A stretch of 16,644 nucleotides of DNA from Deltaproteobacteria bacterium (lineage in GTDB: Bacteria > Desulfobacterota > DSM-4660 > Desulfatiglandales > Desulfatiglandaceae): assembly GCA_013349725.1 (NCBI GenBank), contig DUZB01000019.1:1-16644 (forward strand), given 5' to 3'. Positions 3,427-13,801 of this stretch are shown here, one piece after another. The stretch's first letter is position 1. Each line of letters begins with the position of its first letter. The notes under the pieces are model-generated. The model ran no database searches. It was not told the origin of the DNA and worked only from the letters and a program-made list of their open reading frames with translations. Made by a program: the position numbers and the translations under genes.

Positions 3427-3655
3427 GGGGACGCAGATTTTCGCAGACAAGCACAGATAATTAGTGCCTGAACGAAAACCCCGTTCAGGCACGATTTTGG
3501 ATTTTAGATTTCGGATTTTGGAATTATGGGACGAACTCCAACTCATTAAAGCCTCATTATTTATGCTGTACTCATTTTCATTCCGAGGTTTTCGTTCATG
3601 CACTAATTATTAAGAATAAAAAATTACGTATAATCTGCGTTTATCAGCGTCCAAA
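3427..3655. repeat. Interspersed palindromic repeat, copy 1, with an inserted element
   Basis: The left arm (3427-3460) starts GGGGACGCAGATTTTCGCAG and the right arm (3629-3655) ends with TTTATCAGCGTCCAAA. The arms are the same as those of the compact copy at 13202-13278, but here they are 170 bases apart because a 154-base element with its own inverted ends sits in the loop. It starts 35 bases after the stop of the solute-binding gene and ends in a TTCTTTTCC run, as in copy 2. Confidence 0.8.
3457..3610. mobile_element. MITE-like element with 24-base inverted ends
   Basis: Bases 3457-3480 and the reverse complement of 3587-3610 agree at 23 of 24 positions (the ends read ATAATTAGTGC, then C or A, then TGAACGAAAACC). 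The left end also forms its own perfect 11-base-pair hairpin (3464-3474 with 3482-3492). The interior is AT-rich, with GATTTTGGATTTTAGATTT-like repetition and no protein frame. No transposase is encoded, so it would be a non-autonomous element moved by an enzyme elsewhere. A target duplication cannot be recognised because the flanks are themselves palindromic. Confidence 0.6.
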
Positions 3656-10819: not shown

Positions 10820-12565
10820 TTAGGTAGGCCTGAAGAGGAGCAGCCAGGCGTGGGCTATCACAATGGTAATGATCATGTAGGGGAACGCGGTTTTCATGAA
10901 GCCGATGAAGCTTATCTTGAACCCCCTTGCCTCGGCGATTCCCATGGTGACCACGTTTGCCGAGGCCCCGATGATGGTTCCGTTTCCACCAAAACAGGCC
11001 CCTATTGCCAATGCCCACCAGAGTGTGTTTTCAGCTCCCGGAATGACCTGGCTGAGATAGGCGACAATGGGCAACATGGTGGCCGTGAACGGGATATTAT
11101 CCACAAAAGCCGACATGATGGCGGCCACCCAGAGGATAAGGGCACAGGCGACAAAGAAATTGCCTGCGGAAAGACTCAATATCCAGTCGGCGATGACGGC
11201 CAGAAGTCCGCTCTGCTCCACTGCGCCGACCAGGATGAAGAGGAAGATGAAGAACATGAGCGTGGGCCACTCAATGTCTTTTTCGATCAAATGAATCAGG
11301 TCGACCTTTTCCGTGAGAACGGCAATGGTCAGGAGTACCGCTGCACCCATCACCGCCGCCACGCTGACCTCCATGTGCCAGTATCCATGGCTCAAAAAGA
11401 GGAAAACGGCAAAACCCAGCACCGCCAAGCCGTAGGTGAGGAGTTTGGGGTCCGTGATTCGGTATTTTTCCTTGAGATCCTTGATATACTCCGGCACATT
11501 GTCCACCTTTGCGGAGCTGTAGCTTTTTCCCCATACCAGTTTGGTATAAATAATGAGGACAGTCATGCAAACGGCGCAGATCAGGGCCAGGGCAACCACG
11601 AAGTCCATGAATGTCAGTCCCGCATAGGAACCTATCATGATGTTGGGTGGATCACCAATTAAAGTAGCGGTACCCCCGATGTTTGACGCCAGGACCAGGG
11701 GAATCAAAAGATGCAGGGGATTAATAGAGAGGGAGATGCAGATTTCGATGGCCACACCGGTCAGAAGGAGCATGGTGGTCACATTATCCAGAAAGGCGGA
11801 GGCAACGGCCGTGAATATCATGAGATAAACAGCAAGGACGAAGACCTTCCCCTTGGCCAGTTTATAGGATATGTAAGCGCACCATTGAAAGACCCCCGTG
11901 TTTTTCAGCACTCCCACGATAATCATCATGCCCATGAGCAGGAAAACCACGTTCATATCAATGGAATTGATGGCGCTGTCAAAAGAGACGATATGGTATT
12001 CCGGGTTGACCGTTCCGATGGTATAGGAGATCAGCAGCATGAGGGCGCCGCCCAGCATGGCCGCCACGGTCCTGTGGAGGAGTTCAAAGGCGATGAGCAC
12101 GTAGGCAAGAATGAATACCACCGTTGAAATCCAGAACGCAGGGCCCAAGACCCTGTCGAGGCTGATATCTTCGCTGATGTAGAAATGATCGCCCGAGTTG
12201 GCCAGTTCCGAGCCTTTGAATTCTATTTGGTTGGTCTTGAAACTGGTCTTGCTGGCTCTCACATCAACCGTAGCTTCAACGACCTTCCCTTTTTCCACCT
12301 GGAAACGGGATACATACCTTCCGCTGTGGGCCGTGGTAACCCTGTCTACTTCTTTTCCGTTGAAGAGAATGGCGACTTCTGCTTCAGCGACCGGTTCCTT
12401 GTGGCTGTCTAAAATAATACCCGATATATTGACGGTTTCTCCGCCTTCGATGGCTGCCTTCGGGGGGCCGCCGCCGGCGCCGTGACCAGCGAAAGCGGGC
12501 GGGGTCATGAATAGGAAGCTGATGATAAGAAAAATGAAAAGGGAAATCTGTCTGAGGGTTCGCAT
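10820..12565 (-). CDS. ArsB/NhaD-like ion transporter with N-terminal Ig-like domain
   Basis: This 581-residue protein begins with a signal peptide (residues 1-26, ending PPAFA), then has an extracytoplasmic beta-rich domain of about 110 residues (ETVNISGIILDSHKEPVAEAEVAILFNGK, with HSGRYVSRFQVEKGK). That domain looks like a carboxypeptidase-regulatory or Ig-like module. From about residue 145 a permease of the ion transporter superfamily follows, with eleven or so membrane segments. The signature NIGGTATLIGDPPN and its second-half counterpart FGGNGTIIGASANVV form the two discontinuous helix loops expected for ArsB, NhaD and CitM relatives, along with AFLDNVTTMLLL and AFVDNIPFTATMLP. It probably moves sodium, an anion or an organic acid. 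The ATG at 12565 follows AGGAGG; an upstream ATG at 12622 lacks one and would spoil the signal peptide. The N-terminal fusion is uncommon in the family as I know it. Confidence 0.85.
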   Translation of the reverse strand: MRTLRQISLFIFLIISFLFMTPPAFAGHGAGGGPPKAAIEGGETVNISGIILDSHKEPVAEAEVAILFNGKEVDRVTTAHSGRYVSRFQVEKGKVVEATVDVRASKTSFKTNQIEFKGSELANSGDHFYISEDISLDRVLGPAFWISTVVFILAYVLIAFELLHRTVAAMLGGALMLLISYTIGTVNPEYHIVSFDSAINSIDMNVVFLLMGMMIIVGVLKNTGVFQWCAYISYKLAKGKVFVLAVYLMIFTAVASAFLDNVTTMLLLTGVAIEICISLSINPLHLLIPLVLASNIGGTATLIGDPPNIMIGSYAGLTFMDFVVALALICAVCMTVLIIYTKLVWGKSYSSAKVDNVPEYIKDLKEKYRITDPKLLTYGLAVLGFAVFLFLSHGYWHMEVSVAAVMGAAVLLTIAVLTEKVDLIHLIEKDIEWPTLMFFIFLFILVGAVEQSGLLAVIADWILSLSAGNFFVACALILWVAAIMSAFVDNIPFTATMLPIVAYLSQVIPGAENTLWWALAIGACFGGNGTIIGASANVVTMGIAEARGFKISFIGFMKTAFPYMIITIVIAHAWLLLFRPT

Positions 12566-12598
12566 TGGTGGGTTTCCTCCTGCTGATTCAATAATCTG

Positions 12599-12620
12599 GT
12601 TTTGCTCATGCAAGCAAAAC
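12599..12620 (-). promoter_or_regulatory. Leader hairpin of the ion transporter gene
   Basis: GTTTTGCT (12599-12606) and AGCAAAAC (12613-12620) form a perfect eight-base-pair stem with a CATGCA loop, 33 bases upstream of the start codon in the expected leader of the minus-strand gene. It could be a protein-binding site or an RNA structure; nothing identifies its ligand. Confidence 0.35.
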
Positions 12621-12642
12621 AAATTTAAACGATTTCGAAAAA

Positions 12643-12699: not shown

Positions 12700-12750
12700 G
12701 GGAAACATTGAGGTAGAACAAATTCTTCAGAAGTGTTAAAAATAGAGAAT

Positions 12751-13179
12751 ATGGAAACACAGATTTTTATTATCAAATCGCTTTTTGTCCAGAATACGAT
12801 CATGCTGCTGTCTCTTGGCGTGGTTCTATTTCTCTTTATCCTGGCTCTTAAGAAAAAAAGACAAAAGTCTGTTATTGCTACACTTATATGGATTGCGATC
12901 ATGTTCTGGTTCTTTAACAGCCCTTTTTTCGGTTTCAGCGCTGTTTCGGTGAGCAGGGATGGGGTTCGTTTGAACTACGGGATTCTTTCCATGAGAAATG
13001 ATCTGCTTCCCCTCGAATCTTCCTGGAAAATTGAAAACTATTTTGGCGGGATACGGAGAATGGAACGTCTTCATTTTCTCAGGATCGGCAACCATGAGAG
13101 TATGAAGGTCAGGGGCGCGGAGGACCTGAAGACGCTTCAGGAGATCGGAAAGGCAGTTGATGTGATGAGGTCAAGGTGA
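12751..13179 (+). CDS. Small membrane protein with PH-like tail
   Basis: This 142-residue protein has two hydrophobic helices close to the N-terminus (about residues 15-33, IMLLSLGVVLFLFILAL, and 42-60, ATLIWIAIMFWFFNSPFFG) separated by the basic loop KKKRQKS. A soluble C-terminal part of about 75 residues follows, with VSVSRDGVRLNYGILSMRNDLLPLESSWKIE, which resembles the beta-strand pattern of bacterial PH-like membrane proteins. No named family is recognised. The ATG at 12751 has only a weak AGAG behind it; a GTG at 12733 is the alternative and has no better site. It is divergent from the ion transporter gene, so the two may share control. Copy 2 of the palindromic repeat follows 22 bases after its stop. 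Confidence 0.65.
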   Translation: METQIFIIKSLFVQNTIMLLSLGVVLFLFILALKKKRQKSVIATLIWIAIMFWFFNSPFFGFSAVSVSRDGVRLNYGILSMRNDLLPLESSWKIENYFGGIRRMERLHFLRIGNHESMKVRGAEDLKTLQEIGKAVDVMRSR

Positions 13180-13201: not shown

Positions 13202-13278
13202 GGGGACGCAGATTTACGCAGATAGGCGCAGATAACTATTAAAACGAAAGAGATAATCTGCGCTTATCAGCGTCCAAA
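13202..13278 (+). repeat. Interspersed palindromic repeat, copy 2, terminator-like
   Basis: GATAGGCGCAGAT pairs with ATCTGCGCTTATC (13 pairs, one G-U), and below an 11-base bulge GGACGC pairs with GCGTCC. The whole is followed by CTTTTTCC. It starts 22 bases after the stop of the small membrane protein gene and could end its transcript. The sequence is clearly homologous to the arms at 3427-3460 and 3629-3655. Confidence 0.8.
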
Positions 13279-13328: not shown

Positions 13329-13496
13329 CTACTTGGGGAGGTTTCCCCCTTTTGTCTCTATCTGTGTGATGATTTTTTTCGGGTCGCCTACCTGGCAACT
13401 GTTGCTCATTCAGGTGGAAATCCCGAACTTCGGAAGGATGTATGCCTGAAGGAGCACCCATCCCACAACGATTAACAGCAATACCCAGATGCTCAT
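13329..13496 (-). CDS. Candidate 55-residue membrane selenoprotein (TGA read as selenocysteine)
   Basis: The ATG at 13496 has a good ribosome site (AAAGGAAACAGT before it). The product starts MSIWVLLLIVVGWVLLQAYI, a single membrane helix, then LPKFGIST, then an in-frame TGA (13410-13412), then MSNSCQVGDPKK and ITQIETKGGNLPK before a TAG at 13329. If the TGA is selenocysteine (residue 29), it and Cys34 form a U-x4-C pair right after the helix, as in a small membrane-anchored redox protein. The RNA directly after the TGA forms a SECIS-like hairpin (separate entry). Read conventionally, the gene would be a 28-residue membrane peptide, possibly followed by a 26-residue frame starting at the ATG next to the TGA. 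The gene follows an FmdB-type gene on the same strand after 89 bases. The frame is open for about 20 codons before the ATG (with LECRLAEDRLEHIEQKQKG), so a longer N-terminus from a TTG is possible. The role is unknown. Confidence 0.65.
13367..13412 (-). promoter_or_regulatory. SECIS-like hairpin after the in-frame UGA
   Basis: Ten bases after the UGA, GUUGCC (13394-13399) pairs with GGCGAC (13383-13388), with one U-G pair, and encloses the loop AGGUA (13389-13393). The loop starts 16 bases after the UGA. It resembles the E. coli fdhF SECIS as I recall it, whose loop begins AGGU about 17 bases after its UGA. UGA-A-UGA at the base can also pair with UCAUCA further down (13367-13372). A competing GCAA-CAG-UUGC stem exists at 13395-13405. 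Confidence 0.6.
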
Positions 13497-13585
13497 ACTG
13501 TTTCCTTTCTGTTTCTGTTCAATATGTTCCAACCTATCCTCCGCCAAACGACATTCCAGCTCACGGCCGGATTATATCATCCAGC

Positions 13586-13801
13586 TCAGGAGAATCCCCC
13601 ATGGGACCCGCAGGATGAAGATGCACTGCTTCCGAGACTGTGACCGGAACCGGAACTCACTGATGAGAACGTGGAAAGAAGCTTCTCTCCTTCCTGTTCC
13701 CCGCAAGACGGGCACGGACCTTTATCCTCTCCTGAACTGCGAAAGCAGAGCGATTCATAAACATTTCCACATTTTCCACATTTAAACTCATAGATAGGCA
13801 T
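13586..13801 (-). CDS. FmdB-family zinc-ribbon protein
   Basis: This 71-residue protein begins MPIYEFKCGKCGNVYESLC and continues to PCPSCGEQEGEKLLSTFSSV, the two CxxC knuckles of the FmdB zinc-ribbon family, which are expected to bind one zinc. The second half is a Ser/Gly-rich tail ending SSSCGSHGGFS, common in the family. FmdB proteins were named from a putative formamidase or formylmethanofuran regulator, but their function is not established, so no gene symbol is given. GGGAGGAG lies a few bases before the ATG at 13801. The open frame continues upstream to 13915 without a ribosome site and is not used. The candidate selenoprotein gene follows on the same strand and may be cotranscribed. 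Confidence 0.85.
   Translation of the reverse strand: MPIYEFKCGKCGNVYESLCFRSSGEDKGPCPSCGEQEGEKLLSTFSSVSSGSGHSLGSSASSSCGSHGGFS

Follow-up and report, generated by a model that had tools for sequence, protein, structure and literature searches.

On the minus strand of the window (the whole 16,644-nucleotide stretch of DNA analysed here), a tiny gene at positions 13329..13496 almost certainly incorporates selenocysteine (Sec) at an in-frame UGA, codon 29. The selenoprotein reading with its various parts, leaving aside the proposed function, is likely to be correct as well. The family to which the gene belongs is, judging from profile matches, widespread in its phylum, with relatives in many bacteria of the sulfate-reducer type; this could not have been known from the window sequence on which a preliminary description of this DNA was based. 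The new tiny membrane selenoprotein suggested there is now supported by a conserved UGA, Cys-containing forms, a covarying hairpin, and Sec machinery in relatives. Moreover, an unexpected selenoprotein signal, absent from the preliminary description, was encountered in the adjacent gene for an FmdB-type zinc ribbon.

A conserved UGA and its downstream hairpin

The frame opens with an ATG at 13496 and proceeds through 28 codons to a TGA at 13412-13410, behind which 26 more codons lead to a TAG at 13331-13329. Translation with TGA as Sec gives the 55-residue product MSIWVLLLIVVGWVLLQAYILPKFGISTUMSNSCQVGDPKKIITQIETKGGNLPK, in which Cys34 is found five residues past Sec29 (U-x4-C). A Shine-Dalgarno-like AAAGGA is located just 5′ of the ATG (13503..13508, minus strand). 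In the AlphaFold model of the product only a helix is confident, a predicted transmembrane segment at approximately residues 2-20 (block pLDDT 92 and 88); the tail is of low confidence and disorder-like (later blocks 45-55). The minimum-energy fold of the RNA behind the UGA is the hairpin GUUGCC-AGGUA-GGCGAC (13383..13399, minus strand), with −8.4 kcal/mol, a z-score of −1.8 and a gap of 16 bases between UGA and loop. The preliminary description had given the frame exactly as it stands, and the ribosome site, the single membrane helix and the hairpin that it named were likewise recovered. Its caution that 26 open codons alone are not significant is borne out, as at least 14 open codons follow 52% of random TGA triplets (n = 5000). 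Because of this, and because the fold z-scores of the window are modest (−1.4 and −1.8), open-frame length and single-sequence fold energy were dropped as evidence. An Rfam scan of the window returned a tRNA as the sole match above the gathering score. Taken alone, the window sequence is not compelling; it is comparison with related sequences that puts the case far beyond chance.

Scanning genomes with the 55-residue product, as had been proposed for Desulfobacterota with TGA translated as Sec, retrieved 32 loci. All are from metagenome-assembled genomes (MAGs), titled Thermodesulfobacteriota, Deltaproteobacteria, Desulfobacterales, Desulfobacteraceae, or plain Pseudomonadota/Proteobacteria. 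Codon 29 (13410..13412 in the window, minus strand) is TGA in 32/32 of these tblastn relatives, residues are kept on both sides, and the frame behind it reads U-[LMVF]-x-x-[SA]-C-Q or near variants thereof. Invariant in 30 aligned members are Y19-T28, U29, C34 and Q35. A first profile found the family in 164 of the 395 genomes sampled from the relatives' phylum (E ≤ 0.01) and a broader one in 168 (E ≤ 0.001). TGA was present in all matches listed from the broader search, as well as in 80/80 extra loci, picked by hand from the first-profile matches, for which the DNA was fetched. These counts describe the reach of the family within the 395 genomes sampled from one phylum, and related genomes among them represent non-independent events. 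The 111 members with a start codon comprise 44-68 residues (median 53). A second Cys is found as U-x4-C in 103 and as U-x5-C in six of them, i.e. at +5 or +6 in 109/111. Neither spacing applies to the remaining two, L102, which has no second Cys, and L134, where it follows 12 residues past the UGA. Thus, the pattern that the preliminary description had listed as contrary evidence, TAA or TAG at this codon with loss of the Cys34 region, was not observed among these members. As a separate observation, one MAG (DAOWNP01) holds three contigs (L026, L030 and L032) with the same selenoprotein tail and most of the helix. L030 diverges from the other two just upstream of the helix, as in a duplicated or mobile segment or by an assembly effect.

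According to the available part of a 2026 catalogue (PMC13188914), bacterial SECIS (bSECIS) elements have a loop of 3-9 nt with a G in loop positions 1-2, a stem of 4-16 bp, a spacing of 16-37 nt, and a minimum free energy of at most −7.5 kcal/mol. The window hairpin fits this model with its AGGUA loop, 6 bp and spacing of 16, its energy being borderline (−8.4 kcal/mol in the full fold, −7.4 kcal/mol in isolation). Hairpins of bSECIS geometry were found at −7.5 kcal/mol in 48/112 members versus 178/5000 background TGAs, and at −4 kcal/mol in 90/112 versus 716/5000; the other 22 of the 112 members have no hairpin or one above −4 kcal/mol. The family hairpin covaries in three loop classes, which lends weight to the earlier suggestion of a SECIS behind the UGA. 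In the 5-nt-loop class, to which the window belongs, the covariation score is 0.348 versus ≤0.126 for slid partners, and the GGA-loop class reaches 0.711 versus ≤0.245. The 4-nt-loop class gives 0.320 versus ≤0.163. Here, CG (15 sequences) alternates with UA (10) at pair 15/28, and UA (17) with CG (eight) at pair 18/25, neither pair being broken in any sequence. The cell and score measures of this class beat shuffles; the numbers of variable pairs and of additional pair types do not rise above them. Since position 18 falls on the wobble base of the codon for the conserved Cys, the change there is synonymous.

The tail behind the UGA evolves as protein, as judged from pN/pS in 36 close, non-independent pairs. 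The ratio is 0.15 before the UGA, 0.26 over the first eight codons after it and 0.39 beyond, as compared to 0.99 in a shifted frame. Within the hairpin region pS is 0.207, lower than before the UGA (0.355) or further downstream (0.419).

SelB scored above cut-off in 20/21 of the first relatives and tRNA-Sec reached the Rfam cut-off in 16/21. At least one of the two was found in 168/168 family-positive genomes. SelB itself exceeds its cut-off in 160 of these genomes; the other eight (G030, G033, G060, G081, G107, G128, G190 and G350) carry tRNA-Sec in 8/8 and selA in 7/8 cases. SelB was detected in 353 of the 395 phylum genomes, namely 160/168 positives versus 193/227 negatives (Fisher p 0.0009, genomes not being independent). 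As SelB is common in the phylum, this co-occurrence is regarded as moderate, supporting evidence and not as decisive. In four further loci (L175-L178, from G002, G009, G018 and G021) a tRNA-Sec of 88-90 nt, identified by Rfam match and with anticodon TCA, adjoins a SelB gene or fragment. Another SelB is present in G002, G018 and G021, and a longer tRNA-Sec in G002 and G009, so that these loci look like a second Sec-decoding pair within one genome. The idea that such second pairs decode something else was rejected, since the anticodon TCA in all four is of the Sec type.

Possible function at the membrane

In the proposed mechanism, the hairpin immediately 3′ of codon 29 would direct decoding of this UGA by SelB and tRNA-Sec. 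The resulting protein would consist of the membrane helix, the segment ILPKFGIST-Sec-MSNS-Cys-Q, and a short charged tail. In the family, net charge averages −0.14 over residues 1-5 and +2.2 over the 25 residues past the helix. As positive charge follows the helix, insertion is expected to be N-out/C-in, which would place the Sec/Cys pair at the cytoplasmic face of the membrane. There, Sec29 and Cys34 could alternate between a selenenylsulfide and the selenol-plus-thiol state, transferring electrons to a partner or engaging it in thiol exchange. We consider this redox role moderately probable. Thioredoxin is found among upstream neighbours (4/77 proteins scanned), which was counted in favour of the overall explanation. 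In layout the peptide can be likened to SELENOK and SELENOS, eukaryotic selenoproteins that are likewise small, cross the membrane once and carry Sec in a tail on the cytosolic side; it differs in being smaller and in having its Sec beside the helix. An exact-phrase search of the open-licence literature for bacterial selenoproteins of the membrane gave no result.

The main alternative to a redox pair is metal binding. The protein would still be a selenoprotein, but Sec and Cys would bind a metal, or the peptide would serve a membrane complex as a small structural subunit. Tiny proteins with a single helix often turn out to be accessory subunits, and the size of the peptide fits this. So do the low-confidence, seemingly disordered tail, the zinc ribbon neighbours and, in some lineages, MobB and (by sequence reading) MoaE. 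Against this stands the lack of any single conserved operon or complex partner over the loci examined. Likewise, the paucity of Cys forms among the proteins inspected suggests that selenium chemistry is needed. A metal-binding or purely structural role is thus considered unlikely, albeit to a lesser degree than the other alternatives treated below, and the redox reading is preferred.

Pfam matches among 77 upstream neighbour proteins comprise zinc ribbon (10), 3D domain (9), MobB (4), thioredoxin (see above) and CMD (3), and among 52 downstream neighbours sigma factor (7) and zinc ribbon (3). Inferring function from molybdenum cofactor genes (MobB at eight loci, MoaE at ten by sequence reading) was considered and abandoned. 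The same holds for ATP synthase (by sequence reading), ECF sigma factor, 3D-domain, DsbD-like and ResA/TlpA-like neighbours. Each of these occurs in 4-10 of 113 loci, often in the same gene order, and none was built on for this reason. In seven loci (L012, L014, L015, L024, L025, L070 and L103) a sigma-factor ORF, taken in its longest form, starts 37-40 nt past the UGA and thereby overlaps the selenoprotein tail; a short ORF then follows in 6/7.

In the window and in close relatives, the selenoprotein gene is flanked by two further genes. The window shares a convergent ORF of 148 residues without clear family (12733-13179, plus strand) with L001, L002 and L004. It shares a transporter of CitMHS/ArsB type that has an additional N-terminal region (10820-12622, minus strand) with L001, L003 and L004. 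A ATCTGCGTAAATCTGCGTC-like repeat with inverted arms separates the selenoprotein gene from the gene that follows, at window positions 13204-13275. It recurs at 3430-3448 and 3633-3651, giving three copies in the window at ≤3 mismatches versus 0.01 expected.

The adjacent FmdB-type zinc ribbon

The gene at 13580..13801 (minus strand) encodes a member of the FmdB family, scoring 49.5 bits against TIGR02605 (cut-off 31.3) when scanned without the proposed Sec tail. Its apparent stop codon, TGA at 13586..13588, is followed by a second stop, TGA at 13577-13579. Read through, the protein would end in ...GGFS-Sec-Ala-Gly. We consider a C-terminal Sec (...GFS-Sec-Ala) in this FmdB very probable. In 32/113 loci an FmdB gene is the neighbour of the family gene, in the same orientation (26 upstream, six downstream), and at one further locus it lies 2.6 kb off on the other strand. 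The stop codon of the adjacent copies, including that of the window, is TGA in 32/32 cases; ORFs of at least 200 aa in the same loci end in TGA (254), TAA (218) or TAG (133). A second stop follows after one codon in 17 and after two codons in 15 copies, again 32/32, as compared to 14% of control TGA stops (n = 503) with a second stop within three codons. The residue following the UGA is Ala in 23, Gly in eight and Ser in one.

A putative SECIS with a long stem and an apical CGUGA spans 13543..13585 of the window (minus strand; −21.2 kcal/mol, z −3.0). Across the adjacent copies a hairpin is found 16-21 nt past the UGA with a G in loop positions 1-2. It is present at ≤ −4 kcal/mol in 32/32 copies versus 83/503 control TGA stops, at ≤ −6 in 31/32 versus 32/503, and at −7.5 in 20/32 versus 25/503. 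The homologous apical hairpins covary in all seven pairs (26 of the 32 copies, 64 double-change cells), with a score of 0.886 versus ≤0.208 for slid partners. Because the apical hairpin lies almost wholly 3′ of the second stop, this covariation is not explained by coding constraint.

All four ribbon Cys are invariant in 28 aligned sequences, where UGA occurs at the C-terminus only. The proposed Sec would sit 6-9 residues past a conserved Cys, apparently as Cys-x7-Sec-Ala-Gly in the window copy. When the full FmdB alignment was searched against 297 genomes, the best 30 loci all showed TGA and a tail of one or two codons. A comparison of coordinates by hand showed that 23 of these 30 adjoin a family gene, the adjoining FmdB in G164 being a second copy that is cut by the contig end. 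The same Sec-type tail was seen in all 20 loci of L230-L249, which were chosen for a counted TGA and are not independent, three of them repeating places among the best 30. A few individual FmdB hairpins are weak (L207 −0.4, L233 −3.4, L193 −3.6 and L203 −3.9). Seven Sec-FmdB genomes that lacked a family match in the broader profile search were examined, and tRNA-Sec is present in 7/7. For two of them, G054 and G063, SelB was not matched up to E = 1e-62; selA was found in G054 and not in G063.

The hairpin of the window FmdB was also flagged as terminator-like, so that it could be asked whether these hairpins are transcription terminators behind an ordinary UGA stop. Such an interpretation seems very improbable. 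By eye, the FmdB hairpins mostly lack a T run (the terminator scan covering the window only), and the loop G is kept at its spacing of 16-21 nt. The uniform UGA with a second stop at most two codons away (32/32) is also difficult to reconcile with terminators. A sister FmdB class of 20 loci, selected for having no TGA counted inside the match and for a match reaching model position 70 or 71, has mixed stops (TAA 9, TGA 8, TAG 3). It is without such a tail, ending in CH in 12/20 and with 2-48 codons past its TGA stops. The Sec reading of the FmdB UGA is therefore retained. With Sec next to last, a nearby Cys and flexibility, the thioredoxin reductase-type GCUG tail is similar to that proposed for the Sec-FmdB, which is a zinc ribbon and no flavoprotein.

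In part of the family, the Cys...Sec arm at the C-terminus of the adjacent FmdB, expected to be cytoplasmic as well, might be the exchange partner of the Sec/Cys pair in the membrane peptide. FmdB as obligate neighbour is not supported, as 81/113 loci are without an adjacent copy (some contigs ending early) and other neighbours vary. A direct partnership of FmdB and the window selenoprotein is possible, with the balance slightly against it. Equally tentative is a two-protein selenium module, in which the Cys...Sec-Ala arm of FmdB would hand electrons or metal to the membrane Sec-x4-Cys peptide. The same caution applies to the joint proposition that both proteins of such a module are hidden by databases stopping at the UGA.

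Known selenoproteins and database records

The catalogue mentioned above lists 119 bacterial selenoprotein families and subfamilies in its Table 1 (PMC13188914). In its available part, these resemble the window family in the in-frame UGA, the downstream hairpin, the SelB/tRNA-Sec genomes and a U...C motif. None of the motifs given there is like U-x4-C after ILPKxGxxT, some rows having no motif (“-”). The FmdB entry of the same part shows UxxU with two Sec, elsewhere given as U/CxxU. The available part of the GOS study (PMC2398784) describes a Sec form of FmdB from two sequences with a CxxU motif. It is alike in being a Sec form of the TIGR02605 family; it differs in that Sec is in the ribbon motif, whereas window-type FmdB keeps its ribbon Cys and would have Sec at the C-terminus. 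A C-terminal Sec form was not found in the accessible parts of the open-licence literature on FmdB with selenoprotein or selenocysteine. With its proposed SECIS almost wholly past the coding region, the Sec-FmdB suggests that ordinary-looking UGA stops can hide C-terminal Sec.

None of 30 members of the membrane peptide family matched an NCBIfam model at E up to 0.1, with no hit to any named selenoprotein family there; Pfam gave weak, inconsistent and scattered matches only. The family, found in 168/395 sampled genomes of one phylum, thus appears unannotated, plausibly because its members are tiny and have very few Cys homologues. According to the available part of the deep-Sep study (PMC12013277), selenoproteins lacking Cys homologues may be lost by its filter. 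If the assignment is correct, the membrane peptide alone could be one of the most widely distributed selenoproteins in Desulfobacterota.

Among database proteins, a first search returned 14, and 14/14 stop at ...GIST, directly ahead of the UGA, as anticipated by the remark that gene callers would cut the product to 28 residues. A profile search gave 560 proteins at E ≤ 1, most of the 120 matches listed having 29-41 residues. A 29-residue copy is known from Desulfonema ishimotonii, a cultured relative (DENIS_2149). The best 15 of the 560 all run past the UGA and show Cys (2) or Trp (13) at position 29. With a second search, 302 proteins were obtained at E ≤ 0.1; in 16 inspected of the 120 listed, Cys was found in a further two, Trp in eight and Gly in one (P0135). 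The Cys-for-Sec homologues that the preliminary description had proposed to look for thus exist (P0016, P0017, P0138 and P0141), albeit rarely among the database proteins inspected. P0018 and L018 are almost identical, and the DNA of L018 reads TGA; from this we infer that Trp and Gly stem from gene callers using TGA-sense codes.

The truncated records, together with a hairpin kept as RNA, would also fit a 28-residue membrane peptide for which the UGA is a genuine stop, followed by a conserved regulatory RNA. This is hardly credible given the protein-type constraint on the tail (pN/pS 0.26 and 0.39 versus 0.99) and the Cys five residues past the UGA in 103/111 members. In members inspected at the DNA level, codon 29 is never UAA or UAG, and the four full-length Cys forms are hard to reconcile with a stop. 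Decoding of the UGA as another amino acid, e.g. the Trp (or Gly in P0135) of some database copies, is weaker still and practically negligible in view of the Cys forms, a hairpin whose loop, spacing and G placement fit the bSECIS model, and the Sec machinery of family-positive genomes. A small subgroup (L102, P0059, P0068 and P0103) reads FG[VI]KT-U/W-LxPxRQ or a close variant without a second Cys, and here Sec may act alone.
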